Shown here piece by piece: positions 6,966 to 59,296 of a DNA stretch of 64,000 bases. The notes beneath the pieces are model-generated. The model did no database searches. It was not told where the DNA came from and was given only the letters and a program-made list of their open reading frames with translations. Location of the stretch: the NCBI GenBank assembly GCA_023664865.1, contig JAMPEU010000008.1, forward strand, positions 57,617-121,616, given 5' to 3'. The stretch is from Butyrivibrio sp. (lineage in GTDB: Bacteria; Bacillota; Clostridia; Lachnospirales; Lachnospiraceae). Numbering within the stretch: position 1 is the stretch's first letter; each line of letters opens with the position of its first letter. A program made the translations under genes and the position numbers.

Positions 6966-7056
6966 GTCACGAGTTCAGTAAAAATGAATAAAAACGGGGC
7001 TCCAATGCCTGAAAAGCGGTAAGTCGCCCCTTATTTTATTCATTTTTACTGAACTC
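6966..7056 (-). repeat. Palindromic element family B, copy 1 (B1)
   Basis: A 91-bp palindrome in the leader of the blaI/M56 operon. Read on the minus strand, the outer arms are gagttcagtaaaaatgaat and its exact complement. The inner stem is ggggc/gcccc, and the apical loop gacttaccgcttttcaggca is shared with B2, B3 and B4. The outer arms differ in sequence from the other copies yet remain fully complementary. A further inverted repeat (tagactattacaaaact at 6942-6958 against agttttgtaattgtcta at 7073-7089) encloses the whole copy. Confidence 0.9.
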
Positions 7057-7108
7057 TGATTACTAAAACAGAGTTTTGTAATTGTCTAACTTTGTCCTGC
7101 TTATGTAT

Positions 7109-7126
7109 GGTATACTTCCGTATACC
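7109..7126. promoter_or_regulatory. Candidate operator ggtatacttccgtatacc
   Basis: Perfect 7+4+7 palindrome placed directly downstream of the -10 box of the minus-strand promoter at 7128-7156, where a repressor would block initiation. A further ggtatac half-site lies at 7141-7147, inside the promoter spacer. By position it is the best candidate for the BlaI-like repressor, though the sequence differs from the classic TACA-TGTA consensus of BlaI/MecI. Confidence 0.55.
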
Positions 7127-7127
7127 T

Positions 7128-7156
7128 ATTATTGCATATTGGTATACATATGTCAA
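7128..7156 (-). promoter_or_regulatory. Promoter of the blaI-like/M56 operon
   Basis: On the minus strand TTGACA (7156-7151), a 17-bp spacer and AATAAT (7133-7128). The transcript would run through the ggtatac palindrome and element B1 before reaching the regulator gene at 6902, giving a leader of about 220 nt. Confidence 0.65.
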
Positions 7157-7202
7157 CCTCTTTTTATTCAACCAGAAAAAAATTTTCTCTCTCTTTGAAA
7201 AA

Positions 7203-7257
7203 TGATGCAACTTTGATGCAATTTTGATGAAAATATGATGCAAGCCTCTTGTAGAAT
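7203..7257 (+). promoter_or_regulatory. Four 11-bp direct repeats (tgatgcaa) before a -10 box
   Basis: The octamer tgatgcaa, or the variant tgatgaaa, starts at 7203, 7214, 7225 and 7236, a strict 11-bp period. The -10-like tagaat lies at 7252-7257 and no good -35 box is present. Tandem repeats on one face of the helix in place of a -35 box are the usual layout for activation by OmpR/PhoB-type response regulators. One more tgatgcaa occurs at 7271. This should control the lipoprotein gene at 7315. Confidence 0.7.
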
Positions 7258-7314
7258 GGATATTGGATACTGATGCAAAAATTTCACAGACTAAAATAAA
7301 AATGGGGGATTACC

Positions 7315-8526: not shown

Positions 8527-8562
8527 GCAAAAGTCGTGCCACTGTCTATTGGTATAATCGTG

Positions 8563-8613: not shown

Positions 8614-8637
8614 GCAAAAATGGAAAAATGGATTGAT

Positions 8638-18431: not shown

Positions 18432-18514
18432 AACGCATTATCTCCCTATAAATCTCATACCAGGTAATTATTATTCTATTCTTGAATCTGGCATTACCTA
18501 TTGATTTATATACA

Positions 18515-18543
18515 ATTGTAGTTTGTTGGGACAAATATGTCAA
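18515..18543 (-). promoter_or_regulatory. Promoter of the AAA+/subtilase operon
   Basis: On the minus strand TTGACA (18543-18538), exactly 17 bp, TACAAT (18520-18515). It lies 40 bp beyond the HlyD-family stop, so the defence operon has its own start and does not depend on the ABC operon upstream. Confidence 0.75.
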
Positions 18544-18583
18544 TAGTAGGACAATTATTTCAAAGCAAAAAAGAAGAGGTCTG

Positions 18584-20011
18584 TCAATACCTGACAACCT
18601 CTCCATTCTTCACTTCCGCCGTTGACGAAACGACTATGCAGCTGCTATCGTCCAGCGCCCCTTCCAACGCCGCCCAGTTTTCATTCTCGTCCAGCACTTT
18701 TACGGATATCTGCTCCACATAATACTCCATGCCAAGAATCCCTTCCCGCTCCTTCACCACATACACATAATTTCTGGCGTCTGATGTTTGGTGGACTGCG
18801 GCAGGCGTTATACAACAGGGATATTTCTCACCGGGTTCGGAATGCCTCATTGTGCCTGATAGTCCGGGCGTACCCACTCCGTCGGGAAGATTCGCATAGA
18901 GTTCATAGCTGCCCGGCACACTATCACTCTCAACCAGATAATCTATCTTAAAGTCCTCGCTCTTACTGCTACCGTCCAGTTTCAGGGATATCATGTCATT
19001 CAGCCCGATATATTTTTTCTGCTCCTTATCAATGACGGCTTTAAACTGGCAGGGTACGGTATCATCGGCAAAAAGCATTACCGCCGTATCAGGCGTCCTG
19101 CTGCCTATGCTTATATAAATATCCGTGATTAACCCTTCCCTTTCGGCGCTAATCTGCCCTTCCGCATCTTTGATTGCCTGATACTCGCCAAGTTCCGCCT
19201 GAATTACAGACAGCTCTTCCTGTAAACCGGCAAGCGTCGCCTGCAAGTCCGACATTTCAAGCTGACATGCCTCAAGCGTCGTATCCACCTGATCAGGGAA
19301 GTTTATATCATCTATCCGCCGCTGCGCCTCCTTCATATTATTAGCCCTATTCCATTTGGCGTCCCCTTCCGCATATGCCGCCGCCTGCAGGGCGTCTTCA
19401 AGCTCTTCCTCGCTGCGCCCGTCTTCCTCACTGTAGTTTTCCAACGCATCTTCCGCCTCGCTTACCTCATTCGACGCTCTCCCGACCAATGTATCTTCAT
19501 GCCTTGCCAAAGCGTCATAATCTTCTTTTGCCCGCTGCGCCTCTATTATCTTCTCCACAGCCGCAATCTCCCTATTGAGAGCAAGCGTATCAATCTGCAG
19601 CTGTTTCTCGGAAATCTGCGTCTGCTGCCCGGATATCTTCAGCTGCTGCGCGGCAATCTCCTGCCGCTTGCCTTCCATAATCTCTTCCAAGTCTTCCATA
19701 TCTATTGTAAAAAGCACATCGCCTTCTTCCACCCTATCGCCGACAGTCACGTCAATTCTGTCTATGCGCAGCCCGCTCATGGCATTGATAGGGTTCTTAT
19801 TTCCCGCAATGACTATCCCTTCCGCCTCCACGATATGCTCCACATATTTCTGCTCGATGCCCTCCGTCGTAACTACAGGCAGCCGTGACACATATATGCT
19901 TTTGGAAATAACCGTACACAGCCACATAAACGCAAGAAATATCAAAAAGCCCACTACCATTTTTTTCTTCCTATTTTCCACGCTATTTTCCTCCTGCTTT
20001 TCACTCTTCAT
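18584..20011 (-). CDS. HlyD-family membrane-fusion adaptor
   Basis: A 475-aa protein with one N-terminal transmembrane helix (VVGFLIFLAFMWLCTVIS). A biotinyl-lipoyl-like half (GLRIDRIDVTVGDRVEEGDV) is followed by a long coiled coil (about residues 110-300, rich in Gln/Glu/Ala) and a beta-barrel/C-terminal part. This is the architecture of ABC or RND periplasmic adaptors, which in Gram-positives link a membrane transporter to the wall. No cognate efflux permease or ATPase is next to it. It ends an operon of sugar-ABC genes, an odd partner. Element B2 lies just upstream. Confidence 0.8.
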   Translation of the reverse strand: MKSEKQEENSVENRKKKMVVGFLIFLAFMWLCTVISKSIYVSRLPVVTTEGIEQKYVEHIVEAEGIVIAGNKNPINAMSGLRIDRIDVTVGDRVEEGDVLFTIDMEDLEEIMEGKRQEIAAQQLKISGQQTQISEKQLQIDTLALNREIAAVEKIIEAQRAKEDYDALARHEDTLVGRASNEVSEAEDALENYSEEDGRSEEELEDALQAAAYAEGDAKWNRANNMKEAQRRIDDINFPDQVDTTLEACQLEMSDLQATLAGLQEELSVIQAELGEYQAIKDAEGQISAEREGLITDIYISIGSRTPDTAVMLFADDTVPCQFKAVIDKEQKKYIGLNDMISLKLDGSSKSEDFKIDYLVESDSVPGSYELYANLPDGVGTPGLSGTMRHSEPGEKYPCCITPAAVHQTSDARNYVYVVKEREGILGMEYYVEQISVKVLDENENWAALEGALDDSSCIVVSSTAEVKNGEVVRY

Positions 20012-20041
20012 ATTTCCTTAACTACAATTTTTCTGTACCCA

Positions 20042-20131
20042 GAGCTTAGATGAAATAAACAAAATAAGGGGCGACTTACCGCTTTTCAGGCATGGAGCTC
20101 CGTTTTTGTTTATTTCATCTAAGCTCGTGAC
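20042..20131 (+). repeat. Palindromic element family B, copy 2 (B2)
   Basis: A 90-bp palindrome between the second permease gene and the HlyD gene. The outer arms are gagcttagatgaaataaac and its exact complement. The inner stem ggggc/gctcc has one G-T wobble, and the loop gacttaccgcttttcaggca is as in B1, B3 and B4. It is oriented opposite to transcription of the operon. Confidence 0.9.
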
Positions 20132-20142
20132 ACTAAATAATT

Positions 20143-21018
20143 TCATTCCTTCAACCCCGAAAAAATAATCCCCTGTTCCAGATAGTCCTGCCCCCAGACG
20201 AACACAAACACAGCCGGGATAAGCGTAATAAGCGATGCCACGAAAGCATAGCCCGCCCGCGCCCATGTAATCTCCGGCAGATATAAGGACAAAGGCCACA
20301 ACGCTTTATCCTCTATGAACGCCATCGGCTGCTCCATCATATTCCAATATTCCAGAAAACCCAGCGTCACCGCTGACAGCAGCCCGCTTTTTCCCAGCGG
20401 CATCCCTAATTTTATAAAAATCCCTATTTCTCCGGCTCCGTCTATCCTTGCCGCCTCGAACAACTGCGGCGGAATACAGCGAAACCCGCCATATGTAAGG
20501 AATATGGGAAAAGTTGAAAATACCGCGGGCAGGATAACCGCCTGCTGCGTATTTAAAAGCCCCAGACTTTCAAGGGCAAGATAACTTGAAAGCATCGTGA
20601 CCTGAAAAGGCAGGAGCATAAGCACGACATATAACGCAAACAACAGCCTTGAACCCTTTACTTTATATACGGCAAACGCCCACGCCGCAGGCACGCCGAT
20701 TATAAGCTGCCCTATCAGGATACAGCCCGTTATTTTAATAGAGTTCCAGAAAAGCACGAAAAACTGCGGCGTCATAAATAAAAGACTGGCATAATTCTCA
20801 AAGGTTGGATAATCCGGCACGATTTTCCAGCCGATATACTCCTCTCCGCCCGCAAAAACAGGCGTCAGATACAGCCTTAACTCTCCATCGCCCATCACGG
20901 AGCCTGTTATCAGCAGGATAATAGGGAGAAAAGTGAAAAGCGCGGGGATAAGAAGAGTTATTGTGGTTATTTCGGTTTTTATCATGTTTTTAATATTCTT
21001 AATATTCTTCACTTCCAC
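20143..21018 (-). CDS. Carbohydrate ABC transporter permease (MalG type)
   Basis: GTG start with aaaggagaa upstream; 291 aa. About six transmembrane segments are present. The EAA loop EAARIDGAGEIGIFIKLGMP is the docking site for the ATPase. It would form the channel together with the 21562-22443 permease and receive substrate from the 22403-24817 binding protein. No ATP-binding gene is nearby, so a shared ATPase (MsmX-like) elsewhere in the genome is likely. It is separated from the other permease by palindromes A2 and D, an unusual gap within an operon. Confidence 0.9.
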   Translation of the reverse strand: MEVKNIKNIKNMIKTEITTITLLIPALFTFLPIILLITGSVMGDGELRLYLTPVFAGGEEYIGWKIVPDYPTFENYASLLFMTPQFFVLFWNSIKITGCILIGQLIIGVPAAWAFAVYKVKGSRLLFALYVVLMLLPFQVTMLSSYLALESLGLLNTQQAVILPAVFSTFPIFLTYGGFRCIPPQLFEAARIDGAGEIGIFIKLGMPLGKSGLLSAVTLGFLEYWNMMEQPMAFIEDKALWPLSLYLPEITWARAGYAFVASLITLIPAVFVFVWGQDYLEQGIIFSGLKE

Positions 21019-21080
21019 ACTTCTCCTTTCTTTCTATCCTGTACATTAAGCATTTGCTAAACAACACTCTTTAATAGGCT

Positions 21081-21227
21081 ACGTTGTACAATATATACAA
21101 AACAACGTAGGGCACGCTCCCGCTGCATTGCCGCCAGTAGCGGTACATAAGGTGCTAAAATACAGCACCTAAGTACCGACGGCGGCAGAGCGCCCTGCTT
21201 ATGTTTTGTATATATTGTACAACTCAC
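21081..21227 (+). repeat. Palindromic element family A, copy 2 (A2)
   Basis: A 147-bp inverted repeat with the same arms as A1 (acgttgtacaatatataca at the left; the complement ending in gtacaactcac at the right). The inner hairpin is agcggtac...gtaccg. It lacks mini-palindrome C. It lies between the two permease genes, opposite in orientation to their transcription. Confidence 0.9.
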
Positions 21228-21365
21228 ACTTTGAAATAGTAATTTTTCACAATTATTTATTCTGCACATATATTTATAAAATCTATTTCCCTAATACTCC
21301 AACAAGTATCATTCTAAAACTTCCTAACTTATATCATTGATATCAATGTATTGATGAGTTGTTGG

Positions 21366-21517
21366 GCGACATGGACTCATATGCTTCCTCTTGAGGTCCT
21401 TGGAAAACGCCGGTACTTAGTGAAAAAGCCTGCCTTTCGGCTTTTGAACTTAGTACCGCTGCGATTTTCCACGGAGTGAGAACGTGCCTCAAGTGGAAGC
21501 ATATGAGTCCATGTCGC
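21366..21517. repeat. Large palindrome D
   Basis: Arms of about 31 bp (gcgacatggactcatatgct continuing to cttgagg) pair with one mismatch. A second short stem (tggaaaa/ttttcca) and an inner hairpin ccggtacttag / cttagtaccg follow. The inner hairpin is the same as in family A. Only one copy is present in the window. With A2 it fills the 543-bp gap between the two permease genes, which holds no gene. Confidence 0.8.
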
Positions 21518-21561
21518 ATTCCACCACATACCCCGTTTTCTACCTGAACACCTAACTTCTA

Positions 21562-22443
21562 CTATGTCTCTCTATCCCACATCCGCTGCAACACCATAAT
21601 CACCACAAACAAAAACCCGCCCACGCAGACCGCTGCAGCCGCCATCTTATCAAAGTCCAGCCCAACGAACCAGTTATTAAACAAATGCTGCAGCAAATAT
21701 ATATCCTGCTGCGGATAAGCCCCCGCGACCAGATAGGCTTCTCTATATATCTTGAACGAATTTAAAAACGAAAGAATCACTATGGTATACAAACTGCCAA
21801 GCAGGTTGGGGAGCATAATCCTAAAAAAGCATTGTACCCCCGACGCACCATCTACCTTTGCCGCCTCTATCATTTCATTAGGAATACCCATAATTCCGGC
21901 AAGCCACAGGACTACCGTGTAGCCCGTGTTTTTCCACAGGTAGCTGAACACCAGTACCCATAAGGCTGCGCCGCTCCCCAGATAATCCGTATTCACTTCG
22001 CCCCACAGTCCGCTCCACTCTCCTAACCGCGTCAGCGCAAGATTCAGAAACCCTTGCCTGTAGAAAAACATCTTCCACACGAGTACAATCGTCGCCGTCG
22101 GCATGGCGAGCGGAAACAGATACAGGGATTTAATAACGCCCTTATTCTTTAATTTACTAAGCGGCAGTGCAATCATAAGCCCGACTATGACTAACAGCGG
22201 AATGCAGATTCCGGTAAAGCGGAAAGTGTTTTTTACCGCAAGCCTGAACGCATGATTAGCAAAAATCGTGCGGTAATTCTGCACTCCGGTAAACCGGTTA
22301 GTAACTGCCGTAGTAAATGAACGTTTTATCACGTCTAAAAACGGAACCAGCACGAAAACCGCTACTCCAAGCAGGCTGGGCGTCATAAACAGGAAGAATA
22401 TTCTATTCCGCCATATAGATTGAAATTTTCTTCTCAATCTCAT
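21562..22443 (-). CDS. Sugar ABC transporter permease (MalF type)
   Basis: A 293-aa inner-membrane protein with six transmembrane segments and the EAA loop EAAKVDGASGVQCFFRIMLP. The gene starts 41 nt inside the end of the binding-protein gene, with no later Met before the first helix, so the two are translationally coupled. Partner of the MalG-type permease downstream. The sugar cannot be told from the sequence. Confidence 0.9.
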   Translation of the reverse strand: MRLRRKFQSIWRNRIFFLFMTPSLLGVAVFVLVPFLDVIKRSFTTAVTNRFTGVQNYRTIFANHAFRLAVKNTFRFTGICIPLLVIVGLMIALPLSKLKNKGVIKSLYLFPLAMPTATIVLVWKMFFYRQGFLNLALTRLGEWSGLWGEVNTDYLGSGAALWVLVFSYLWKNTGYTVVLWLAGIMGIPNEMIEAAKVDGASGVQCFFRIMLPNLLGSLYTIVILSFLNSFKIYREAYLVAGAYPQQDIYLLQHLFNNWFVGLDFDKMAAAAVCVGGFLFVVIMVLQRMWDRET

Positions 22444-24817
22444 TCACCGCTTCCTCAAGGCTCATATGCCCTCCTAAATATGACGCGCCCGTCTGGTAAA
22501 CCGCATCCTCCAGCGTAACATCTTCTATATACGGAGTGCGCAGTTCTTCCATACATTTCTTAAGCGCTGCTATATCGTCTTCGTCAGACTGATACACTAC
22601 AAATGTCATCTCAATTCCGTCAGGATCACCACCGCCTATATATCCATAAGCCCCATCTTCGCCCAGCCAGCTTTCATCAACTGCAAAGCTCTCCATAAAC
22701 GCCGACTTATTTACCGCAATGCCGTAATAGAGCTTGGACTGGTTCTCTTTGCCCAGACACAGCCGCACAAACTCTTCCGCCGCTACGGAATTTCCTGATG
22801 CCGCGCTTATGCCAAGCAGAGTTTTGGCACAGAAAACATTACTGCTCTGTCCGTTCATCATCTTCCACTTGCTCTCTTCAAATCCTTTCACTTTATTTAT
22901 AGAATGAAGATCATCATATCCGCTGAATACAATGTCTGCCATTGCCCCCGATACCAGTTCCCGCATTCCACATGTATAGCTCAGCCCATCTATACTTGTT
23001 CTAAAATACCGTGATTCTTCCCGCGTTTCGTCAAAGTTTTTCTCCCAATATGCATTAGTATCCGCATACTGCTTAACTTTCTCCGTAGACGCGCCTTCCA
23101 TCTGCGCATCATATATTCTCTTGCTCTGCGCCAGAAATTCCTCTATTGCCTCTCTATCAAGTTCGCCGCCCACAGTCCATGCCGGAACGCACACCATTGC
23201 AAAATAGCGCAATATTCCTTTTTCCGAATAAATACCAAACAAATCCTTGCCCGGCTTATCTTCTCTGATTTTTTCCGCCATATCTGCTATACCGGTCAGG
23301 TCATTTGCTCCTGATATATATTTTTCATCTCCCGCTATAACCGGAATCTGAATTTCACAGGGCATTGCATACGTCTTATCGCCCTTTTTCATCGCCTGTA
23401 CGATATTCTCAAATACTTCGTCTTCGCCGCTTAAGCTGCTTAAAATTCCGCTTAAATCGGTCAACAAGCCTTTTTCAATATATGAGTCCATCGGCAAGCC
23501 GTCTAAAATCAGGATATCCGGACCATTTCCCGACATAATCTCTGTATTAAGGCTCTTTATCGCGTCCTCTCTGGTCGCCGCGCCGCCTGTCTCCATGCCG
23601 ACTTCATACTCGATGGAAATATCCGTATGTATGGTCTGATATAATGCTATCGCCTGACGCACGGTATCATTTTCTTTCAGGCTGTATATCTTAAGCCTGT
23701 CGCTCGGCACAGTCGCCACATTAGCATCGTAAGTATAACGCACAAGCCTGCCGCCGCTGAATATAGTAAGAAATTCATTATTTTCCAGCATAACCATACC
23801 ATATATGCCATATGCGGGATTGCCAAATGTGCTAAGGCTGCCCTCGATAAGCTGTTCAACCGTGCTGCCGCCTATCGCATGACGGTGCAGGCCTTTTTTG
23901 CCTGCTATATACATAACTCCGTCTTCGCCGTTAAAATAATGCACCGCATAAGTTTCTTCACCGCTGAAAGCATTGCCGCTTGGATAATACTCGTTAATGA
24001 AATCTTCCAAACATTCATCTTTGACATATTCCTTCTTCTCTATATCATAGAGCAGCGGAGCGCTGTATCTTGCCCCATCTATCAGCATAAGACTGCCATA
24101 GAAACGGATATACTCCGGACCGCTCTCCTGCAGCGTCACAAAAAGCTCGCAGCTTCCATCGGATTTTACCTCATATACATTACTGTTACCCAGAACACCG
24201 GCAAAAACCCTTCCGTCGTCCGATACTCCTACACCGCGGAAATAGCTATCTCCCTCCGCTGGAAGAGCTGCAATGATTTCCGTTCCGTCCGGTTTAAAAA
24301 TATACAAATCCATCTTAAAAATCCCTGACTCTTCCGAGTTTGATTCGCTGGCGCGTATAACCGCGGCAGTACCGTCCGCTCCGAAGGCGATTGCGCTAAT
24401 ATAGACTTTCTCCTCAAGCAGCTTGGTATGCCATGCAAAATTATCTTCCTGCCATGTCTCGCCGTTATCCTCCGAAATCAGAAATCTTGCGTCCGCGTCG
24501 GCAATAATAATTCTACCGTCATTCAATTTATACATTCTGTTAAATCCGACAAGACTATCCGACATATCCGTAACAGTCTCCACATACCGCCCCATAGCGA
24601 TATTTCCGTCAGTTTGCTGCGGCGTCTGTGTGCCGTCCCCACTCCCGCTGTTTTCGGGAATTATTTCTTCCGGCGCACCTGTTGCATTTATTCCACTCGT
24701 ATTATTACTATTACCTGTGCTATTATCTGCGCCTGTTTTGCCGCAGCCCGCCAGACATATGACTAACATCACCATTGCCAGCAGCGCCGCCGACATTCTT
24801 TTTGCTTTCATTTTCAT
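22403..24817 (-). CDS. Lipoprotein solute-binding protein fused to a propeller-like N-terminal domain
   Basis: 804 aa. The lipoprotein signal ends in CLAGC. A Ser/Asn/Thr-rich linker is followed by about 300 residues of repeated beta-strand units. These include a sialidase-type Asp-box-like stretch (RFLISEDNGETWQED), as in beta-propellers. From about residue 390 it becomes a family-1 extracellular solute-binding protein (LKIYSLKENDTVRQAIALYQ, GPDILILDGLPMDSYIEKGL). Normal binding proteins are about 420 aa, so the N-terminal half is an extra domain. It starts the ABC operon and overlaps the permease gene by 41 nt. Confidence 0.85.
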   Translation of the reverse strand: MKMKAKRMSAALLAMVMLVICLAGCGKTGADNSTGNSNNTSGINATGAPEEIIPENSGSGDGTQTPQQTDGNIAMGRYVETVTDMSDSLVGFNRMYKLNDGRIIIADADARFLISEDNGETWQEDNFAWHTKLLEEKVYISAIAFGADGTAAVIRASESNSEESGIFKMDLYIFKPDGTEIIAALPAEGDSYFRGVGVSDDGRVFAGVLGNSNVYEVKSDGSCELFVTLQESGPEYIRFYGSLMLIDGARYSAPLLYDIEKKEYVKDECLEDFINEYYPSGNAFSGEETYAVHYFNGEDGVMYIAGKKGLHRHAIGGSTVEQLIEGSLSTFGNPAYGIYGMVMLENNEFLTIFSGGRLVRYTYDANVATVPSDRLKIYSLKENDTVRQAIALYQTIHTDISIEYEVGMETGGAATREDAIKSLNTEIMSGNGPDILILDGLPMDSYIEKGLLTDLSGILSSLSGEDEVFENIVQAMKKGDKTYAMPCEIQIPVIAGDEKYISGANDLTGIADMAEKIREDKPGKDLFGIYSEKGILRYFAMVCVPAWTVGGELDREAIEEFLAQSKRIYDAQMEGASTEKVKQYADTNAYWEKNFDETREESRYFRTSIDGLSYTCGMRELVSGAMADIVFSGYDDLHSINKVKGFEESKWKMMNGQSSNVFCAKTLLGISAASGNSVAAEEFVRLCLGKENQSKLYYGIAVNKSAFMESFAVDESWLGEDGAYGYIGGGDPDGIEMTFVVYQSDEDDIAALKKCMEELRTPYIEDVTLEDAVYQTGASYLGGHMSLEEAVNEIEKKISIYMAE

Positions 24818-24860
24818 TTTGATATACTTGCTCCTCTCATTTCTTTGATTTGAATAGCTA

Positions 24861-24978
24861 GAGTTTAGTCAAAAAACAGAAAATTTACTTCGTAAATTAT
24901 CTGTAACAAAATAAGGAGCGACTTACCGCTTTTCAGGCATTGGAGCTCCGTTTTTGTTCATTTTAGCTGAACTCGTGA
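24861..24978 (+). repeat. Palindromic element family B, copy 3 (B3), interrupted by C
   Basis: Just upstream of the binding-protein gene. The right half (ggagctccg, then gttcattttagctgaactc) and loop are as in B4. The left arm begins gagtttagtcaaaa and is split by mini-palindrome C before aacaaaataaggagc resumes. This makes it 118 bp instead of about 91. Confidence 0.85.
24875..24903 (-). repeat. Mini-palindrome C nested in B3
   Basis: Exact reverse complement of the 29 bp at 328-356 in A1. It sits inside the left arm of B3, which the sister copies show as continuous. Confidence 0.8.
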
Positions 24979-25039
24979 AAGCAAATTTCAACTTGCTTTA
25001 TCATTGTTATAGCAGATTAATCTCTAAGAAATCTCTAAT

Positions 25040-25080
25040 ATAAAAACCGGAAGGAGTAATTTATATACTTCTTCCGGTTT
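25040..25080 (-). terminator. Intrinsic terminator of the AAA/PD-(D/E)XK operon
   Basis: On the minus strand a stem of ten pairs (aaaccggaag/cttccggttt), extended after one mismatch by agta/tact, is followed by a T-rich tract (ttttta). It lies 73 bp after the stop of the small gene at 25153. Confidence 0.75.
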
Positions 25081-25152
25081 AATAGCGTGTATTCTGCTGT
25101 GGCAGGACTTAATTATTTTGTTTTACTATACATCTAACAGAATTTATTCCAT

Positions 25153-25335
25153 TTATGCCCTCTTAACACTATTATTTCTTGGCGGATTGACTCTTCTAAA
25201 CTTCATGGCTCTTTCCGGCGTAGTTTCAGGGCAATCCTTGTCAAAAACAATCGGCTTTTCTCTGGCAATTTTTAATTCTTCCATTTCTTCTTCTGAAAAA
25301 GCTAATTTTTTGAAAATATTTATCCAATAAGACAC
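25153..25335 (-). CDS. Small unknown protein coupled to the AAA/nuclease gene
   Basis: GTG start at 25335 with gagggg 5 nt upstream, overlapping the end of the preceding gene by 16 nt. The 60-aa product has an acidic helix (FSEEEMEELKIAREKPIVF) and a basic tail (PERAMKFRRVNPPR). It is followed by a clear terminator, so it is the last gene of a two-gene unit. It resembles small antitoxin-like or regulatory partners in length and charge, but I know no specific family. Confidence 0.5.
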   Translation of the reverse strand: MSYWINIFKKLAFSEEEMEELKIAREKPIVFDKDCPETTPERAMKFRRVNPPRNNSVKRA

Positions 25336-27056
25336 TTTTTCCCCTCAAATGCGAACCCGTACTTCCTGATGCGCTCCGGGGCAATCCCTTCCGCAGTCAG
25401 TTTTGCATCATACCGTTTCTCCTCAATCTGTGCAAGGGCATTTGCAACAGTCTGTTCAAGGTCTTTTTCTTTCAAAGGCTTATGCACTTTGAACTCAATT
25501 ATATATGCGCAGTCCTTCTCTCTGTTTTTCGGTGTCAGCATGATGTCATAACGTCCAAATCCGCTTTCCCTGTTTGATGTAATCTCAAATCTTCCGGCAA
25601 GTTCGACCATCAGCCCCAGTACAAAACCGTGATAAAAACGTTCAGGTGCATCTTCTTCGGATACATTTTTAGCAATATCAAAATTTGAAAAACTGTGCAA
25701 TGCAATCTTGTTCATGAATTCGTTCATTCCATCTAAATCATTTATCAGAAATGCCTTGATAAATTCACTGTAGTACACTTCTGCATCATTTTTAAACCAT
25801 CCCTTTACCATTTTACGGAACATCCGTCTTACTTCCATGTTTGTGACCGTCAGCGTGTACCATGTATCGCCTTCCCCACCAATTCCATCCTCGTCCGAAT
25901 CCTGTGTTTTTACATCCAACACTTTTAAGTATCCTGTCGCAAGCAAAAGACTCCACACTGCATCCGCATTGCCATTCAACTGGTCAAACACAACTTTTTC
26001 ATCAATTTCAGCCTCAAAGCTTTTACCCTGCAAAAGGTCTTCCATTGTCTGCTTGATGTTCGGGCTTCCCTGTTTTATAAGCTGGTTTACAAGAGCATTT
26101 CCGCTTGTGTTTGACCAGTAGGTATCGTATTTTCCTTTTTCATTAATAAATGATACGATTGACCACGGATTATAAATGTCTGTACAGGCGCCAAATGTAA
26201 ATCCATCGTACCACCTCTTTACTTTTGCTGTATGCTCCCCCAATCCGGCATCATCAAGCGCCGTAAAGACTTCTTTTTCCGTAAATCCAAAAGATGTCAT
26301 ATACCTGTCAGATGTGGTTGTTATGACTTTGAGGTTATTCATGCCTGTAAAAATACTTTCTTTTGCGATTCTTGTAATTCCCGTAATCAGCCCGCGTTCA
26401 AGGTATTCGTTTGTCTTAAACGTGGAATTGAACAGACCGCTAAAAAAGTGTACCGCCTTTTCCCAGTATCCAAAAATCCATGCGTCATGCATCGGTGTGT
26501 CATATTCATCCAGGATAATGAGCACATTCTTATTATAATATCGCTGCATGAATCCAGTCATTAAGTGTATGGCATCCATAGCCAGTTCACTGCTCATTCC
26601 AGGTTTTATATTCTGATAGTGTTCCCTTTCTTTTTCATTCAACAGATTTCCTTCCAGTAAATATTCATTTTTATTATATAAATCAGTGATTACCTGGCCA
26701 ATTCTGAATATCATCCCTTCATATGACGTTGCTTTGACATTTGCAAAACTCAAAAAGATTACCGGAAACGTTCCCTGCAATTCCCTATATTTATATTCCC
26801 CGTCAGGAGATGTTTTCTCCCATATGGACAATCCTTCAAACAAATCAGCCCTGCCCGCATACTTATTGGAGAAAAAACACTCCGCCATACTCATGTTCAG
26901 CGTCTTCCCAAACCTGCGCGGACGCGTGATCAGTGTGACTTTATCCGCATATTCCCACCATTCCCTGATAAAATCCGTCTTGTCGATATAAAATATATGT
27001 TTTGTCCTTACTTCCTCAAAATCCTGATATCCGAGCCCTGCCTTATTCTCGTTCAT
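25320..27056 (-). CDS. AAA-ATPase-like protein with C-terminal PD-(D/E)XK nuclease domain (DUF1703 type)
   Basis: Start placed at ATG 27056 behind ggtgagg; 578 aa. The N-terminal AAA-like module has YIDKTDFIREWW, the Walker-A-like ITRPRRFGKTLNMSM and the Walker-B-like VLIILDEYDTPM. The C-terminus has the PD-(D/E)XK core: GRYDIMLTP, then YIIEFKV, then QIEEKRY. This family is abundant in gut Bacteroidetes and Clostridia, often in many copies. Its role is unsettled (mobile or defence-related ATPase-nuclease). It lies between the ABC operon and a two-component system, possibly as an insertion. Confidence 0.85.
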   Translation of the reverse strand: MNENKAGLGYQDFEEVRTKHIFYIDKTDFIREWWEYADKVTLITRPRRFGKTLNMSMAECFFSNKYAGRADLFEGLSIWEKTSPDGEYKYRELQGTFPVIFLSFANVKATSYEGMIFRIGQVITDLYNKNEYLLEGNLLNEKEREHYQNIKPGMSSELAMDAIHLMTGFMQRYYNKNVLIILDEYDTPMHDAWIFGYWEKAVHFFSGLFNSTFKTNEYLERGLITGITRIAKESIFTGMNNLKVITTTSDRYMTSFGFTEKEVFTALDDAGLGEHTAKVKRWYDGFTFGACTDIYNPWSIVSFINEKGKYDTYWSNTSGNALVNQLIKQGSPNIKQTMEDLLQGKSFEAEIDEKVVFDQLNGNADAVWSLLLATGYLKVLDVKTQDSDEDGIGGEGDTWYTLTVTNMEVRRMFRKMVKGWFKNDAEVYYSEFIKAFLINDLDGMNEFMNKIALHSFSNFDIAKNVSEEDAPERFYHGFVLGLMVELAGRFEITSNRESGFGRYDIMLTPKNREKDCAYIIEFKVHKPLKEKDLEQTVANALAQIEEKRYDAKLTAEGIAPERIRKYGFAFEGKKCLIG

Positions 27057-27359
27057 ATGATACCTCACCCCTGTCTGCAATTGTTCCCATCTCATTATCA
27101 TTATACACAATACTGGCTTTTTTCACAATATCGGCTTAAACGCTTACCACGGAAAACGCATGACAACATTCCATATCGCGGCAATTACCAAGGCATTAGG
27201 GTACAAGGGCATACCAGTATGAAGAATTATAAAAATTTTTTAGAGAATAATTAGAGATTCCTATGTTATGATAAAATATAATAGCATCAGCCAAACACAG
27301 ACTCACGCCTTGCGAAAAGATACTCGAGCTTACAGATTGAGTAAGAACGGAGGCTCATT
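27057..27359. other. Intergenic region before the response regulator
   Basis: About 300 bp without a convincing gene. A -10-like tataat occurs at 27277-27282 without a good -35 box and could start the response-regulator transcript. No repeat or palindrome was noticed. Confidence 0.4.
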
Positions 27360-28028
27360 ATGCGGATTTTACTTGCCGAAGACGACAAACAACTAAACAG
27401 CGCCCTTGCATACCGTCTGGAATCGGAAGGTTTCAGCGTGGACGCCTGCCTTGATGGTGAAGAGGCGCTCTACTATGGCGAACAGAATATTTATGATATT
27501 ATATTATTAGACAGAATGTTGCCCCATATGGAAGGAACTGATGTTTTATCAGCTTTGAGAAAGGCGGGCATTACCACGCCCGTCATTCTGATTACGGCGT
27601 TAGGCTCTTTATCCGATAAAGTAAGCGGACTGGACTTAGGCGCGGACGATTATCTTGTCAAGCCCTTCGAGTTTGAAGAACTTCTTGCCAGAATCCGCTG
27701 CGTCGCCAGAAGACCGCATACCATAACCGAAAATGACTCGCTGACGGTCGAGGATATTACATGGCAGCCAGCCGAGTGCATACTGACAGGTCCTTCCGGC
27801 TGCTGCACCCTGTCCAAGAGGGAATCCGCCCTTCTTGAAACATTTCTGCGCGCCAGAGGGCAGACGCTCCCAAGAAACACTTTACTGCTTAAAGTCTGGG
27901 GACCGGACAGCGATGTTGAAGACGGCAATCTGGACAACTACATCCATTTCCTGCGCAGACGCTTACAGATAACGGGCAGCCGCCTTAAAATCCTGACTAT
28001 ACGCGGTATCGGATATAGCCTACAATAA
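27360..28028 (+). CDS. OmpR/PhoB-family response regulator
   Basis: 222 aa. The receiver domain has acidic residues in LLAEDDK, the phosphoacceptor Asp in IILLDRMLP (about residue 51) and Lys in YLVKPFEF. A winged-helix DNA-binding domain follows (LSKRESALLETFLRARGQTL ... VWGPDSDVEDGNLDNYIHFL). RBS ggagg before the ATG. The kinase gene follows on the same strand after element B4. Targets are unknown; regulators of this class bind 11-bp-spaced direct repeats like those at 7203-7243, but a link is only a guess. Confidence 0.93.
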   Translation: MRILLAEDDKQLNSALAYRLESEGFSVDACLDGEEALYYGEQNIYDIILLDRMLPHMEGTDVLSALRKAGITTPVILITALGSLSDKVSGLDLGADDYLVKPFEFEELLARIRCVARRPHTITENDSLTVEDITWQPAECILTGPSGCCTLSKRESALLETFLRARGQTLPRNTLLLKVWGPDSDVEDGNLDNYIHFLRRRLQITGSRLKILTIRGIGYSLQ

Positions 28029-28063
28029 TGGCAGATAATCGCAAAACTCTATTTCCATACCCA

Positions 28064-28154
28064 GAGTTTAACCAGAATAAACAAAATAAGGAGCGACTTA
28101 CCGCTTTTCAGGCATTGGAGCTCCGTTTTTGTTTATTTTGGTTAAACTCGTGAC
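28064..28154 (+). repeat. Palindromic element family B, copy 4 (B4)
   Basis: A 91-bp palindrome filling the gap between response regulator and kinase. The outer arms are gagtttaaccagaataaac and gtttattttggttaaactc, with a single G-T wobble. The inner stem is ggagc/gctcc, and the shared loop is gacttaccgcttttcaggca. Read in the direction of transcription, the inner stem is followed by a T-rich run (gtttttgttt), so it could act as a weak terminator within the operon. Confidence 0.9.
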
Positions 28155-28187
28155 AGCAATAATAATTTTATGAAAGGAAACCCCATT

Positions 28188-29483
28188 ATGTTTAAAAAAG
28201 TCCATCTGCGCCTGACTCTATTATGCGCGGGAAGCACAGCCGCTATCATGATTGTTATGTCGCTCGCCTACTTATATATATCGGAGCAGAACCTTAATAA
28301 AAATCAGGTTCAGTCATTTGAAAACGATATTAATACAATTGCCACTAATCTTGAGCATCAAAACGTAATCACTATGGAATGGCTCTCCAAAATGGAGGCG
28401 CAGAACAATTATATATTCTTTATTATTGATAACGGCATCCCTTTTCTCTACAACAGTTTAAGCGACTTAGGTGAAAGCGTTTCCAAAAGCCTGCTCCTTG
28501 ATGAATTTCTTGATATCAGGCAGACAACCGCCGCCGATTACGGCGTTTATTACTCAAGCAACGGCTCTAAAGTGCAAATCGACTATAACTATACCTTCAC
28601 CTCGCCTTCCACGGGTACAGACTATCTTGCGGGAGTAATCAGGCTCGGTGATAAATCCACGCTAGAGATAATTGTGCTTTCTTCTGAATATGCGTTGAAA
28701 AGCCAGCTCCGGGGACAGCGTTTCCGTTTCCTTATTATTGACATTGCCGCAATATTGCTGCTTACCGCTTTTGCATGGTTTTTTACAGGCAGGCTTTTAA
28801 AGCCCATCTTGGAAAACCAACAAAATCAAATCCAATTTATCGCCTCGGCGTCACACGAGCTGCGCACGCCGCTTGCCGTTATCCTGTCAACCGCCGAGTG
28901 CTGCCGCAATGCTTCGCAAGAAGAACTGGACGGTTTTCTTAACACGATAAATAAAGAAACCCTCCATATGTCCGCCCTGCTCGACGATATGCTCACCCTT
29001 TTTGGCTCTGACGGTCAGCATTTTCCTGTCAAAATGCAGCCTGTAGAAATGGATACGCTGGTTATTAATTCCTACGAATCATTTCTGCCGCTGGCAAAGC
29101 AAAAATCCATCGACCTTGCTGTAAGTCTGCCGGAAGAACCTCTGCCGACATACCCTGCCGACTCACAGCGAATCAGCCAAGTTATCGCCATCCTTATACA
29201 AAACGCCATCAGCTATACTCAGGAAGGGGGAAAAATAGCGCTATCCCTTTCCTATAATAAATCACACTTCTATATCTCCGTCACCGATAACGGCATCGGG
29301 ATTCCCGATGAAGATAAGAAGAAGATTTTCGACCGTTTCTATCGCGCAGAAAAATCCCGCAATTCTAAAGAGCATTTCGGTCTGGGACTCTCCATCGCCT
29401 ATGAAATCATACAGGCGCATGGCGGCAGCATCACAGTATCAGACGCCGCCGATGGCGGCAGCGTTTTCACGGTTATACTCTAA
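28188..29483 (+). CDS. Sensor histidine kinase
   Basis: Start placed at ATG 28188 with aaagga upstream; 431 aa. Two membrane helices (about residues 8-30 and 175-195) bracket an extracellular sensing domain of about 140 residues. HisKA contains the phosphorylated His in SASHELRTPLAVILS. The HATPase domain has the N box (IAILIQNAISYT), G1 (DNGIGIPDEDKKKIFDRFYR) and G2 (HFGLGLSIA). Forms a two-component system with the regulator upstream; ligand unknown. Confidence 0.93.
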   Translation: MFKKVHLRLTLLCAGSTAAIMIVMSLAYLYISEQNLNKNQVQSFENDINTIATNLEHQNVITMEWLSKMEAQNNYIFFIIDNGIPFLYNSLSDLGESVSKSLLLDEFLDIRQTTAADYGVYYSSNGSKVQIDYNYTFTSPSTGTDYLAGVIRLGDKSTLEIIVLSSEYALKSQLRGQRFRFLIIDIAAILLLTAFAWFFTGRLLKPILENQQNQIQFIASASHELRTPLAVILSTAECCRNASQEELDGFLNTINKETLHMSALLDDMLTLFGSDGQHFPVKMQPVEMDTLVINSYESFLPLAKQKSIDLAVSLPEEPLPTYPADSQRISQVIAILIQNAISYTQEGGKIALSLSYNKSHFYISVTDNGIGIPDEDKKKIFDRFYRAEKSRNSKEHFGLGLSIAYEIIQAHGGSITVSDAADGGSVFTVIL

Positions 29484-29602
29484 GCTGATTATACTCTAAT
29501 TTATCACAATCTCTCAGCCATCTTACATTAATTCGCTTATTGTCACCAAAAATCAGATATGCTATAATTTATATAATAATTGCAAAATTCATTCTTCATA
29601 GC

Positions 29603-29746
29603 GTGAGTTGTACAATATATACAAAACATAAGTAGGGTGCTCTGCCACCGTCGGTACTTAGCGAGGTTCTTTCGAGCTTAGTACCGCTACTGGTGGCAAT
29701 GCAGCGTAAGCGTGCCCTACGTTGTTTTGTATATATTGTACAACGT
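29603..29746 (-). repeat. Palindromic element family A, copy 3 (A3, inverted)
   Basis: A 144-bp copy in the orientation opposite to A1 and A2. The arms gttgtacaatatatacaaaa are retained, as are agcggtactaag/ctaagtaccg and the linking gtaggg/ccctac segments. The flank ataattgcaaaattcattct resembles the flank of A1. It lies in the leader of the gene at 29775. Confidence 0.9.
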
Positions 29747-29774
29747 AAAATATTAAACACAAAAAGGAGAAACT

Positions 29775-30353: not shown

Positions 30354-30382
30354 ACCGGCAAATTAAGAAGGGCAGGCGTAGC

Positions 30383-30724
30383 ATGGGAGTATTTAGTGCG
30401 ATTACAAAGCATTTTAAAATTAACTGGTGTAGAAATTGCAAAGCCGAAATGGCTGCGATGTACAAGCGGCTTTATTGGATGCCCATGACAGTAGGACATT
30501 ATGCAGAACATAAAGACGCCGATTATTATCTGAAAAATCTCAAACCGCTTATGAATATAGCGCAAATCCCGCCGGGCTATTATGCCTGCGATGCAAGCAT
30601 GTACCGCTGCCCCGGCTGCGGAAGACGCATTACAGTAATGACTCCTTTTCTCCAAGTTAGGAACGAAGAGAAAACGGAGTCGCATATCATCTTTGAAAAT
30701 GGGGAATTAGACGCCCTCTTTTAG
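30383..30724 (+). CDS. Unknown protein with zinc-ribbon motifs
   Basis: 113 aa. It has two cysteine pairs typical of a zinc ribbon (CRNCKAEM at residues 16-23 and CPGCGRRI near residue 76). The middle part is aromatic ([20 protein letters not shown]). The gene is 29 bp after the preceding one and overlaps the convergent proS stop by 4 nt. Function unknown. Confidence 0.6.
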
Positions 30725-56035: not shown

Positions 56036-56602
56036 ATGATATTATTAATAGACAATTATGACAGCTTTTCCTATAATCTGTTTCAGCTTATAGGCTCTAT
56101 GAATCCTGATATAAAGGTAATCCGCAATGATGCGTTCTCCGTAAAGGAAATAGAGCAGATGGCTCCTAGCGCAATCGTCCTTTCTCCAGGTCCCGGCAAG
56201 CCGGAAGATGCGGGAGTCTGTATCGACGTAGTTAAGGAACTTGGCGGTAAAATCCCCATCCTGGGCGTATGTCTGGGGCATCAGGCTATCTGCACGGCTT
56301 ATGGCGGCACGGTATCCTACGCCAAAGAACTTATGCACGGAAAGCAGTCCGTAACCAAGCTGGATAAGGAATGTCCTATTTTCAGCGGGCTGCCTGAAAG
56401 CATACCCGTAGCAAGATACCATTCGCTCGCGCTTATTGAAGAAACCCTGCCCGAATGTCTTACCATTACGGCAAGGACGGACGACGGCGAAGTTATGGCA
56501 GTGCAGCATAAAGACTATCCTGTATATGGGCTGCAATTCCATCCCGAGTCCATACTCACGCCGGACGGATATGCCATAGTTAAAAACTTTTTAAATGATT
56601 AG
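56036..56602 (+). CDS. trpG: Anthranilate synthase component II (glutamine amidotransferase)
   Basis: 188 aa class I amidotransferase: LIDNYDSFSYNLFQLIG, SPGPGKPEDAG, catalytic Cys in ILGVCLGHQAI, and His-Glu in YGLQFHPESILT. Supplies ammonia to TrpE. It may also serve aminodeoxychorismate synthase, as in other Firmicutes. trpD follows after 111 bp of AT-rich sequence that shows no clear element. Confidence 0.96.
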   Translation: MILLIDNYDSFSYNLFQLIGSMNPDIKVIRNDAFSVKEIEQMAPSAIVLSPGPGKPEDAGVCIDVVKELGGKIPILGVCLGHQAICTAYGGTVSYAKELMHGKQSVTKLDKECPIFSGLPESIPVARYHSLALIEETLPECLTITARTDDGEVMAVQHKDYPVYGLQFHPESILTPDGYAIVKNFLND

Positions 56603-56713
56603 GATGCTTTTCACAACGCATTATTTAAATTTTAGCACTTTGTAAGGAATTAAGAGAATATATAAATATCAATATACAACAAGAATTATTTAAAAGAATG
56701 GAGGATTACTGTA

Positions 56714-57730
56714 ATGATTAAAGAAGCTATTATCAAAATCGTGGATAAGCAGGATTTGACCTATGATGAGGCATACGCGGTCATCAATGAAATAATGAGC
56801 GGGGAAACCACGCCTACGCAGAACGCCGCTTTTCTTGCCGCCCTTTCTACCAAAAGCACTAAGGCTGAAACGGTTGACGAAATCGCCGGCTGCGCCGCTG
56901 CCATGCGCAACCATGCCACTAAGGTAACGCATAATATGGACGTTTTGGAAATCGTAGGCACTGGCGGAGACGGAGCCCATAGCTTTAATATTTCTACCAC
57001 TTCTGCGCTTGTTGCCGCAGCGGGCGGAGTAAAAATAGCCAAGCACGGAAACCGCGCCGCTTCTTCAAGCTGCGGTACGGCAGACTGTCTGGAAGCATTG
57101 GGTGTAAATATCGACCAGTCTCCCGAAAAATGCGTCGAGCTGCTTGAAAAAGCCGGTATATGTTTCTTCTTTGCACAGAAATATCATACGTCGATGAAAT
57201 ATGTCGGCCCTATCCGTAAGGAACTCGGAATCCGTACCGTATTTAACATCTTAGGGCCACTCACCAATCCGGCTTCCCCTAACAGGCAGCTTTTGGGCGT
57301 CTACGACCAGTCTTTGGTAGAGCCGCTTGCAAGAGTGCTTACCAGTCTGGGCGTTAAGCGCGGCATGGTGGTTTATGGAATGGATAAGATGGATGAAATT
57401 TCCGCCAGTTCGTCTACTTATATATGTGAGTTTAATCAGGGCGAGTACCGCACCTATACCATAACGCCGGAAGATTTCGGGCTTACCGGTTGTAAAAAAG
57501 AAGAACTTGTAGGCGGAATGCCGGAAGAAAATGCGGCGATTACTATTTCCATACTCAAAGGTGAGCAAGGACCTAAGCGTACTGCCGTTCTTCTTAATGC
57601 AGGCGCAGCGCTTTACATTGCAGAAAAGGCGGAAAGCCTTGCGGACGGAGTGAAGCTTGCGGGAGAGCTTATTGATTCCGGGAAAGCGCTTGCTGTGTTG
57701 GAGGCGTTTAAGGCGGAGAGCAATAAATAG
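56714..57730 (+). CDS. trpD: Anthranilate phosphoribosyltransferase
   Basis: 338 aa. Signature: [14 protein letters not shown] (phosphoribosyl-pyrophosphate loop), [40 protein letters not shown] and [10 protein letters not shown]. Second step of the tryptophan pathway. RBS ggagg before the ATG; 9 bp before the trpC frame. Confidence 0.97.
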
Positions 57731-57745
57731 AAAAGGATTGTGAAT

Positions 57746-58531
57746 ATGGCTAATATTTTAGATAGCATAGCGGAATATGCAAGGGAGCGGGTACGCGTGG
57801 CGAAGGAAGTTCTTTCGCTGGAAGAAATAAAACGTCAGGCTCTTGACAAAAATTGTAATACAGGGTTTCCTTTTGAAAAGGCTCTTTCAAGCGAAGGCAT
57901 AAGTTTTATCTGTGAGTGCAAGAAGGCTTCACCGTCAAAGGGCATGATTGCAGAAGATTTTCCTTATATTGACATTGCCCGCGAATATGAGGCAGCGGGC
58001 GCGGCGTGTATTTCCGTTTTGACAGAGCCTAAATGGTTTCTTGGCAGGAATGAATATCTTAAGGAGATTGCGCAGGAAGTTTCCATACCGTGCATCCGCA
58101 AGGATTTTACTGTGGACGAGTACATGATATATGAAGCTAAGCTGCTTGGCGCAGCCGCGGTCCTGCTGATTTGCTCGCTGCTTCCTACCGAAACATTGAA
58201 GTATTACATTGAAGTCTGCGACAGCTTAGGGCTGTCGGCACTGGTTGAAGCCCATGATGAAACAGAAATTGCCTCCGCCATAGATTCAGGCGCACGTATC
58301 ATAGGCGTAAACAACAGAAATCTGAAAAATTTTTCGGTTGACATAAATAATAGCGGTCGGCTCCGTTCAATCGTTCCTAAAGACGTTCTGTTTGTTGCAG
58401 AAAGCGGAATACAGCGCCGTGAAGATGTGGAAGCTTTGGAACGCGCCCATGTGGACGCAGTCCTGATTGGCGAAACGCTTATGCGCGCCGCTGACAAAAA
58501 GGCTATGCTTGAAGTTTTAAAGGGAATGTAG
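57746..58531 (+). CDS. trpC: Indole-3-glycerol-phosphate synthase
   Basis: 261 aa TIM barrel starting at ATG 57746. Blocks: FICECKKASPSKGMIAEDF, ISVLTEPKWFLGRNEYL, IPCIRKDFTVDEYMIYEAKL, GVNNRNLKNFSVD and FVAESGIQ. Fourth enzyme of the pathway. 74 bp separate it from trpF. Confidence 0.96.
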   Translation: MANILDSIAEYARERVRVAKEVLSLEEIKRQALDKNCNTGFPFEKALSSEGISFICECKKASPSKGMIAEDFPYIDIAREYEAAGAACISVLTEPKWFLGRNEYLKEIAQEVSIPCIRKDFTVDEYMIYEAKLLGAAAVLLICSLLPTETLKYYIEVCDSLGLSALVEAHDETEIASAIDSGARIIGVNNRNLKNFSVDINNSGRLRSIVPKDVLFVAESGIQRREDVEALERAHVDAVLIGETLMRAADKKAMLEVLKGM

Positions 58532-58605
58532 CCTGACAATAGTTTGTACAGACGTTATTATAGTTTATGTGCATAAATTTGCAGGTTTAATAAAATGAGG
58601 TTTTT

Positions 58606-59208
58606 ATGACTAAGATTAAAATTTGCGGTCTTCAATCGGAAGATGATATTTCCTATGTGAATGAATTAAAGCCTGACTATATCGGTTTTGTATTTTTAAA
58701 AGGAAGACGGCGTTATATTACGCCCGAATATGCCGCACATCTGCGGAAGCTTTTAATTCCTTCTATTATAAGTGTCGGCGTATTTGTGAACGAGCCTATT
58801 GAAAGTGTGGCTGCGCTTTTGCGGAATGAAACCATTCAAATCGCCCAGCTCCACGGAGACGAAGACGCGGCTTATGCTAATGAGCTTAAACGCTTGTGCG
58901 GTAAGCCCATTATCAAAGCATTTATTATTAAATCAGAAGATGATATTAAAAAGGCGCTTGCCTATCCTGCCGATTATCTGCTCTTAGACAACGGGCTGGG
59001 GACGGGAGAAGCTTTCGACTGGTCTTTAGTACGGGATATAGATAAGCCGTTTTTCTTAGCCGGAGGTTTAAATCCCGCAAATGTAAAGGCTGCGATAGAT
59101 ATCACTAAGCCCTACGGAGTAGATACCAGCTCAGGAGTGGAGACAGAGCACCGTAAGGACTACAATAAAATTAAGGAATTTATAGAGGTGGTACGCAACA
59201 GAGTTTAG
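58606..59208 (+). CDS. trpF: Phosphoribosylanthranilate isomerase
   Basis: 200 aa TIM barrel: KIKICGLQSEDDISYVNEL with the catalytic Cys, IGFVFLKGRRRYI, QLHGDEDAAY, LLLDNGLGTGEAFDW, FFLAGGLNPANV and DTSSGVE. Note that the last codons and the TAG stop (59206-59208) lie within the left arm of palindromic element B5, so the element defines the protein's C-terminus (NRV). Confidence 0.95.
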   Translation: MTKIKICGLQSEDDISYVNELKPDYIGFVFLKGRRRYITPEYAAHLRKLLIPSIISVGVFVNEPIESVAALLRNETIQIAQLHGDEDAAYANELKRLCGKPIIKAFIIKSEDDIKKALAYPADYLLLDNGLGTGEAFDWSLVRDIDKPFFLAGGLNPANVKAAIDITKPYGVDTSSGVETEHRKDYNKIKEFIEVVRNRV

Positions 59209-59296
59209 ACAAAATGAACAAAATAAGGAGCGACTAGCCGAAATATTTATATTTCTTCTGCTTTCGGAGCTCTGTTTTTTACACTAAGCTCGTGAC
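59201..59296 (+). repeat. Palindromic element family B, copy 5 (B5), divergent loop
   Basis: A 96-bp copy between trpF and trpB. The left arm is gagtttagacaaaatgaac and the right arm ends in actaagctc, with at least one G-T wobble in the terminal seven pairs. The inner ggagcgact is retained, but the loop is different: it contains gccgaaat and a matching ttcgg, forming an alternative inner hairpin. A run of six T follows the inner stem in the direction of trp transcription. Confidence 0.8.

Follow-up and report, generated by a model that had tools for sequence, protein, structure and literature searches.

The 64,000-nucleotide stretch of Butyrivibrio sp. contig JAMPEU010000008.1 analysed here (positions 57,617 to 121,616 of the forward strand; hereafter the window) carries five copies of a short, folded-back intergenic repeat, family B. 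The genome to which the window belongs (G000; 3.82 Mb in 180 contigs) contains about 100 copies in all, and 97 of these were examined. Our analysis leads us to regard family B as probably a non-autonomous nested palindrome of the miniature inverted-repeat transposable element (MITE) kind, similar to a REPIN (a hairpin-forming doublet of repetitive extragenic palindromic, or REP, sequences) without being one, whose two arms are kept matched at the level of DNA. Each element is built of three parts: the head TTTCAATAACCAGAG, the tail CTCGTGACAGCA and, between them, a hairpin of ~30 bp whose asymmetric core, AAAATAAGGRGCGACTTACC...GGAGCYCCGTTTTT, is conserved. Outer terminal inverted repeats, AGATAATTGCGAAACT, are retained by some copies and also bound elements of a related palindrome family, C. 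An earlier sequence-only reading of the window had reported five copies, and all five lie where it had placed them; the chance expectation for the core pattern in the window is 0.00. The corresponding features are given below, where R1 is the model of family B copies used in searches and G020 is a relative of G000.

6966..7056, minus strand: B1, with head, inner hairpin carrying the conserved core, and tail (model R1, 132 bits)
6940..7087, minus strand: B1 together with its outer stem, whose degenerate terminal inverted repeats AGACAATTACAAAACT / AGTTTTGTAATAGTCT are a degenerate form of AGATAATTGCGAAACT
20042..20131, plus strand: B2; at the orthologous position G020 has a copy whose arms differ but pair with each other
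24861..24978, plus strand: B3, with a second hairpin interrupting the 5' arm (model R1)
24877..24903, minus strand: small hairpin CAGATAATTTACGAAGTAAATTTTCTG inside B3, with a further exact copy at 328-354 (plus strand)
28064..28154, plus strand: B4 (model R1)
28033..28048 (C169:85649-85664), plus strand: left terminal inverted repeat of B4, AGATAATCGCAAAACT (repeat search); no right one was seen by eye
59201..59296, plus strand: B5, a variant with a longer loop and part of the 3' arm lost (model R1)

A pattern search of G000 allowing up to 3 mismatches returned 67 forward and 37 reverse places, compared with 0 and 1 for a reversed control. About 100 of these 104 places were listed and 90 loci were fetched around them; a script run on the fetched loci gave 98 rows, of which one (window, minus strand; in L203) looks spurious, leaving the 97 copies studied. 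Four of the 97 lie under a called open reading frame (ORF), and the family is multi-copy, intergenic and too short to encode a transposase, as is characteristic of MITEs. The proposal of a multi-copy REP/MITE-like repeat is borne out, with more copies than were first seen.

Matching of the arms through compensated change was assessed on 84 aligned copies. Dropping the spurious row and the nine copies into which a small hairpin had been inserted reduced the 98 rows to 88, and L019, L026, L069 and the second L084 copy were omitted. RNAalifold returned 27 paired columns for the 84 copies, with compensated changes in 23 of them; in the named structure 96.9% of cells were paired (85.5% in shuffles), 275 cells were changed on both sides (71 in shuffles) and the covariation score was 0.355 (0.140 in shuffles), and each of these values was reached by none of 500 shuffles. 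Because the structure was derived from the same 84-copy alignment, the analysis was repeated on copies from other genomes. The 24 copies used, from G020, G010, G004 and G006, were picked among 73 matches that include duplicates and reverse-strand matches, with long ATATTTATAT loops and oddly armed copies omitted, and showed compensated changes in 19 of 29 pairs. The statistical examination of covariation that the sequence-only reading had called for therefore upholds the signal, which survives both the shuffles and the separate species set. In an ungapped count over 80 of the 97 copies, the other 17 having interrupted or unusual arms, 1435 of 1520 arm positions were Watson-Crick, whereas swapping arms between copies gave a mean of 1077 (standard deviation 12, maximum 1119 in 500 swaps); the 80 copies contain 75 distinct 5' arms. 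Within the window, the claim that arms differ between copies while each remains paired with its own partner held for B1, B2 and B4, but not for B3, into which a hairpin is inserted, or for B5, whose 3' arm is partly lost.

A conserved RNA structure is usually proved by covariation, and the 84 copies pass that test (0/500) without a significant strand preference among the mismatches; how the arms stay matched is the interesting part of this system. A G-T on one strand is an A-C on the other, so that selection on the fold of a single strand should make one of the two rarer. Over 18 pairs in the 80 copies we counted 25 G-T against 17 A-C (p=0.28), over 19 pairs including the outermost 30 against 18 (p=0.11), and in the 46 of these 80 copies that are antisense to both neighbours 14 against 12, a comparison of modest power that leans towards G-T. 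A clear preference for G-U over A-C in the variable pairs, as expected of a structured RNA, was not found, and a DNA-level process or constraint fits this lack of a significant wobble excess better than does an RNA fold. The statement that exceptions to pairing are mostly G-T wobbles does not hold, as the non-Watson-Crick positions of the 80 copies comprise 30 G-T, 18 A-C and 37 others; and of the folded DNA or RNA hairpin that had been suggested as the object of selection, RNA is not indicated by these counts, while a constraint on DNA fits them.

A transcribed hairpin selected as RNA, whether as a regulator, a terminator or a stabiliser of mRNA 3' ends between genes, would account for the strong covariation, the conserved internal-loop motif, the location near one gene's stop codon and the start of its neighbour, and the strong orientation bias described below. 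We nevertheless consider such a structured RNA unlikely, because G-T does not significantly exceed A-C either overall or in antisense copies (at modest power), copies occur in both orientations, the family is absent from 19 of the 25 genomes of the genus, other species have different loops, and Rfam contains no match above its gathering score. Specifically, Rfam gave nothing above gathering score in the window; on loci L189, L183, L164 and L007 it gave only mir-3338, at the L189 element and at 26 bits (gathering 95); and at E<=1 the tested loci yielded just RNase P and the weak miRNA match. A kink-turn-like reading of the core as tandem G.A pairs was weighed by eye and set aside, the order of bulge and G.A appearing to differ from that of k-turns.

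The occurrence of copies in both orientations relative to transcription, noted in the sequence-only reading, is real but conceals a 56:11 antisense bias between co-directional genes. By simple ORF calls, 56 of the 97 copies are antisense to both flanking genes and 11 are sense to both (p=2e-8), with 18 divergent or convergent and 12 undetermined; the sense call for L003 looks wrong by eye, and its removal would strengthen the bias. In a count that does not depend on ORF calls, words resembling ribosome sites and pointing away from the element were found on the left of 44 of 96 copies (control 3), and on the right of 15 (control 17), which is no excess. Copies pointing with transcription have probably been removed, since a GC stem followed by GTTTTT would act as a terminator in that direction, and such an effect of GCTCCGTTTTT would explain the orientation bias. 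As a check on replication strand, negative GC skew accompanied 28 of the 34 antisense copies and 4 of the 12 sense ones, in a sample of 40 stretches plus the window that was picked to include long-contig sense cases and is not representative; a replication-strand cause of the bias is possible.

Evidence for mobility comes from the ends of the elements, as well as from the patchy distribution and the element-free places in G020 described below. At up to 3 mismatches the repeat AGATAATTGCGAAACT occurs 151 times in G000 compared with 37 times for the control, and 114 times compared with 64 in G020, where the excess is weak; paired repeats bound family C elements and two elements with a B core, L189 and L201. 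Among 76 anchored B copies, a left repeat matching at 11 or more of 16 positions accompanies 10 and a right one 11, compared with 2.7% and 2.1% of shuffled flanks, and 10 of the 11 right repeats lie at a single offset of 12-13 bases. Flanking direct repeats around 19 repeat pairs, in which L192 is counted twice and a few pairs are probably chance, have a mean score of 3.92, compared with 1.55 over 200 flank swaps (standard deviation 0.35, maximum 2.89). The best duplications, matching at 11-12 of 12 or 12 of 13 bases, are at L184, L185, L192 and L201, and among the B-core elements the target duplication matches at 12/12 in L201 and 9/12 in L189; no clear target duplication was found at B1, L172, L186, L187, L188 and others, and that at L039 is weak. 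From the duplications of ~12 bp carried by terminal-repeat elements we infer movement by a transposase, which the searches below did not find. Transposition is well supported for the superfamily and, via AGATAATTGCGAAACT ends, for family B in a few cases; by extension, most B copies would also have transposed.

The search for the responsible enzyme bears on a second alternative, in which family B is a REP or REPIN spread by a REP-associated tyrosine transposase (RAYT, TnpA_REP) or another Y1 transposase. High copy number, extragenic location and a hairpin would all suit such a system, as would the compensated changes that PMC3116915 reports for REPIN spacers and a single Y1_Tnp match in G010, which has many B copies. 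We judge this very improbable: Y1_Tnp (RAYT) matches are absent from G000 and G020 (drafts 97% and 94% complete), G004, G006 and G023, whereas G022, which has no family B, contains 16; the ends show no GTAG tag by eye; and related elements possess terminal inverted repeats with ~12-bp duplications. By-eye inspection of the hairpin foot found neither GTAG nor CGTC, the tags of two REP families named in PMC3733652, the stem feet being ACCAGAG and CTCGTGAC. The linked RAYT/IS200 transposase that the sequence-only reading had suggested seeking is thus disfavoured by the Y1_Tnp distribution. DDE_Tnp_1, with two matches in G000, was likewise set aside as a partner after eight loci from several genomes, together with the G010 Y1 locus, proved not to be clearly bounded by AGATAATTGCGAAACT; other transposase families were not searched. 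Locus L246 (G000:C103:9578-10324) contains a DDE_Tnp_1 gene with inverted repeats of its own, GAGGGTGTCCCAAAA, that bear no relation to the palindrome ends. No family B match was obtained in phages, plasmids or viral contigs. Among the first 100 of the 151 AGATAATTGCGAAACT places in G000 and the first 100 of the 114 in G020, inward-facing pairs of 48-230 bp number eight and five, respectively, and wider inward pairs comprise seven of 2.2-5.5 kb in G000 and pairs of 1.8 and 3.7 kb in G020.

A search of the genome and its relatives with a model of the copies, as the sequence-only reading had proposed, found R1 matches in 6 of 41 genomes: at least 92 in G000, 71 in G010, 46 in G020, 8 in G004, 3 in G006 and 1 in G023. 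At E<=0.001 with strict filters, family B was found in none of 19 other genomes of the genus and in 0 of 16 genomes of other families, so that its distribution within the genus is patchy (6 of 25). The exact loop pattern, searched in 84,980 species genomes among which G000 or very close genomes may be missing, occurred in 15 stretches, all from JAMPHY01.

Comparison with G020, which is ~90% identical and syntenic over window positions 18500-30500, shows how individual places differ between the two genomes. The G020 places corresponding to B1, B4, L072, L007/L069 (two places in G000 with a single aligned counterpart in G020) and the minus-strand copy of L013 hold no element; that of L055 holds what looks like a remnant, and that of B3 a diverged short sequence. 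Places at L022, L045, L063, L064 and L077 are shared with similar arms, and the pair changes in five countable shared places are three double and three single; at L043 and L061 the two copies differ by the small hairpin CAGATAATTTACGAAGTAAATTTTCTG, which is absent from the orthologous B copies of G020. In G020 the places of B2 and L070 carry copies with different arms; at B2 the two genomes differ at both members of seven pairs and at one member of an eighth, between flanks that are 91% identical. At L013/L146 the whole element is reversed between the genomes, and at L148/L186 G020 has a B element where G000 has family C; these two cases show that places are reused, not how. No G000 counterpart was found in the fetched G000 sequence for 12 of 24 G020 rows.

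These shared copies bear on a third explanation, that a DNA hairpin needed for transposition, with folded arms and core recognised by a transposase, would by itself keep the arms paired, without any copying between them. Mismatches without strand asymmetry, conservation of core, head and tail, and the exchange of cores between frames are all compatible with this, and we treat it as a possible explanation though not the likely one. Copies that do not move should drift under such selection, yet copies shared with G020 are still paired at flank divergences of 7-17%, and paired-up internal loops match a prediction of template switching: the conserved internal mismatch is paired in L089, L126, L127 and L007, folded copies chosen for that reason.

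The anatomy of the element is modular. Conservation outside the stem extends through the head to about position -31 and through the tail to ~10 bases past the stem; a weaker signal follows at 18-19. By script, the loops of the 98 G000 rows were classed as the type described in the sequence-only reading (82), short (5), ATATTTATAT (2) or unparsed (9), and by eye five of the nine unparsed loops are of the described type. That type dominates in G000 and G020, and the examined copies of G010 and G004 have shorter or other loops, so that the loop taken to be fixed is nearly constant in this species and its neighbour (and present as described in B1, B2 and B4) but not in other species or in B5. Nearly constant throughout are AAAATAAGG, the GA opening and GA closing the loop region, and the GC stem. 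When the fetched G000 sequence was scanned for a head and a tail no more than 320 bases apart, 62 pairs emerged, of which 50 are B, two (L164 and L167) have a core of the type of a further palindrome family, A, between family B head and tail, and 10 are others. Among these 10 are L163, in which the core is deleted, bare palindromes of 17 nt (L169) and 19 nt (L196), L172, a B copy short of one base, and several apparent chance pairings. Unrelated arms, for the most part self-complementary, carry the B core at L007/L069, L026, L114, L096 and L189/L201, with L190 a core-less version of the last. Tandemly repeated units occur in L013, L002, L064, L084 and L078; those of L013 (around 1500, minus strand), L002 and L064 are ~28-38 bp long and are built from the head half alone or the tail half alone. 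The small hairpin CAGATAATTTACGAAGTAAATTTTCTG is inserted in either arm of B and C elements, at window positions 328-354 and 24877-24903 and at L040, L043, L053, L061, L074, L075, L079 and L080. The hairpin is thus modular, its cores, arms and extra hairpins being exchanged, inserted, lost and perhaps inverted. An inverted core is indicated by flank match at L019 and L177 (the latter outside the scored set), and extreme inverted-core scores were obtained only for L019 (-7, reached by 0.1% of shuffles) and L046 (-6); a general occurrence of inverted cores found no support beyond L019 and L177.

Under our favoured reading of family B as a MITE-like nested palindrome matched at the DNA level, the arms would most likely be kept complementary by arm-to-arm copying, through template switching during replication of the long palindrome, and a requirement for a DNA hairpin in transposition may act alongside this copying. 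Arm copying is favoured by the excess of double over single-sided changes (242 versus 55 cells over 18 pairs in the 80 copies), the lack of a significant G-T/A-C asymmetry, the paired internal mismatch of L089, L126, L127 and L007, and the inverted cores indicated at L019 by score and at L177 by flank match. Template switching is described as homogenising inverted-repeat arms and inverting spacers (PMC8604942; PMC7202029). A more far-reaching and rather doubtful version would see these elements as core-exchanging nested hairpins, in which short cores occupy the tips of palindromes of any sequence and the arms are rewritten by copying, so that RNA-like covariation would arise from a DNA mutational process and not from RNA function.

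Several observations weigh against the favoured reading. Copies have inherited compensated changes from common ancestors, and the 242 doubly changed cells therefore do not represent 242 independent events. The terminal repeat is present at both ends (at least 11/16) in only 3 of 76 copies, and most copies may therefore have moved without the repeats or decayed. Insertion and deletion are not always separable in the G020 comparisons. Pure arm copying would erase an asymmetric core, yet the core survives in most copies, so that some selection on it is needed. When the orientation of core relative to flank was scored in 100 copies, 89 were usual and 10 fitted better inverted, which is no commoner than in shuffled flanks (~12.6%). 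Finally, no autonomous partner was found among the first 100 listed AGATAATTGCGAAACT places of each of the draft genomes G000 and G020: the 17 proteins scanned within inward AGATAATTGCGAAACT pairs of up to 4.6 kb (14 of 17 called in five stretches and three of L192) are ordinary genes and include no transposase, the 5.5-kb pair not having been examined.

Family B is apparently an undescribed relative of the small mobile repeats of other bacteria. The earlier statement that no described family with this loop was known stands as far as Rfam and open-licence PubMed Central papers extend, in which no known entry was found: text search of the open-licence papers returned none with the loop or the terminal repeat, and topic searches, covering mostly titles and the starts of abstracts, returned none that appears to describe the family. 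REPINs have conserved REP ends, a variable spacer and an associated RAYT (Bertels and Rainey 2011, PMC3116915), and their hairpins are reported commonly to carry compensatory changes on the two sides (PMC3116915). Family B shares with REPIN and REP elements its many extragenic copies, hairpin, non-autonomous mobility and compensatory changes; unlike REPINs, it is conserved in the core at its tip, G000 yielded no Y1 transposase, and its relatives have terminal inverted repeats with ~12-bp duplications. The MITE BrickBuilt of Porphyromonas gingivalis (PMC4596501) is similarly intergenic, with inverted-repeat ends, leader and tail units and internal tandem units, to which the tandem heads or tails of L013, L002 and L064 are comparable; family B differs, in a comparison by description and not by sequence, in its covarying inner hairpin and exchangeable cores. 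Template-switched quasipalindromes (PMC7202029, PMC8604942) likewise involve the copying of one arm to the other and spacer inversion, although the accounts drawn on here treat a mutational process at individual sites and not a source of covariation in a mobile repeat family. If arm copying is indeed at work, a DNA-level null model is needed whenever covariation statistics are applied to multi-copy palindromes. Within a single genome, family B preserves a record of the changes that long palindromes undergo, and it is a lead to a transposition system that leaves ~12-bp duplications.

The related palindromes of the window, none of which has an assigned strand, are as follows.

21366..21517: family A palindrome, with a similar core found inside family B head and tail at L164 and L167
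21083..21223: family C palindrome
29607..29744: family C palindrome
228..392: family C palindrome carrying the small hairpin, with its right terminal repeat at 411-426

The family C palindromes of the window have arms of GTTGTACAATATATACAAAACA and a conserved inner core, and by eye they have in common with family A the inner motif GGTACTTAG...CTTAGTACCG. At L183, L184, L185 and L187 the family C core sits on quite different arms, and several family C elements show ~12-bp duplications outside their AGATAATTGCGAAACT repeats. Close to one family C element lies an RNase P class A RNA gene, at L183:680-1019 on the minus strand.

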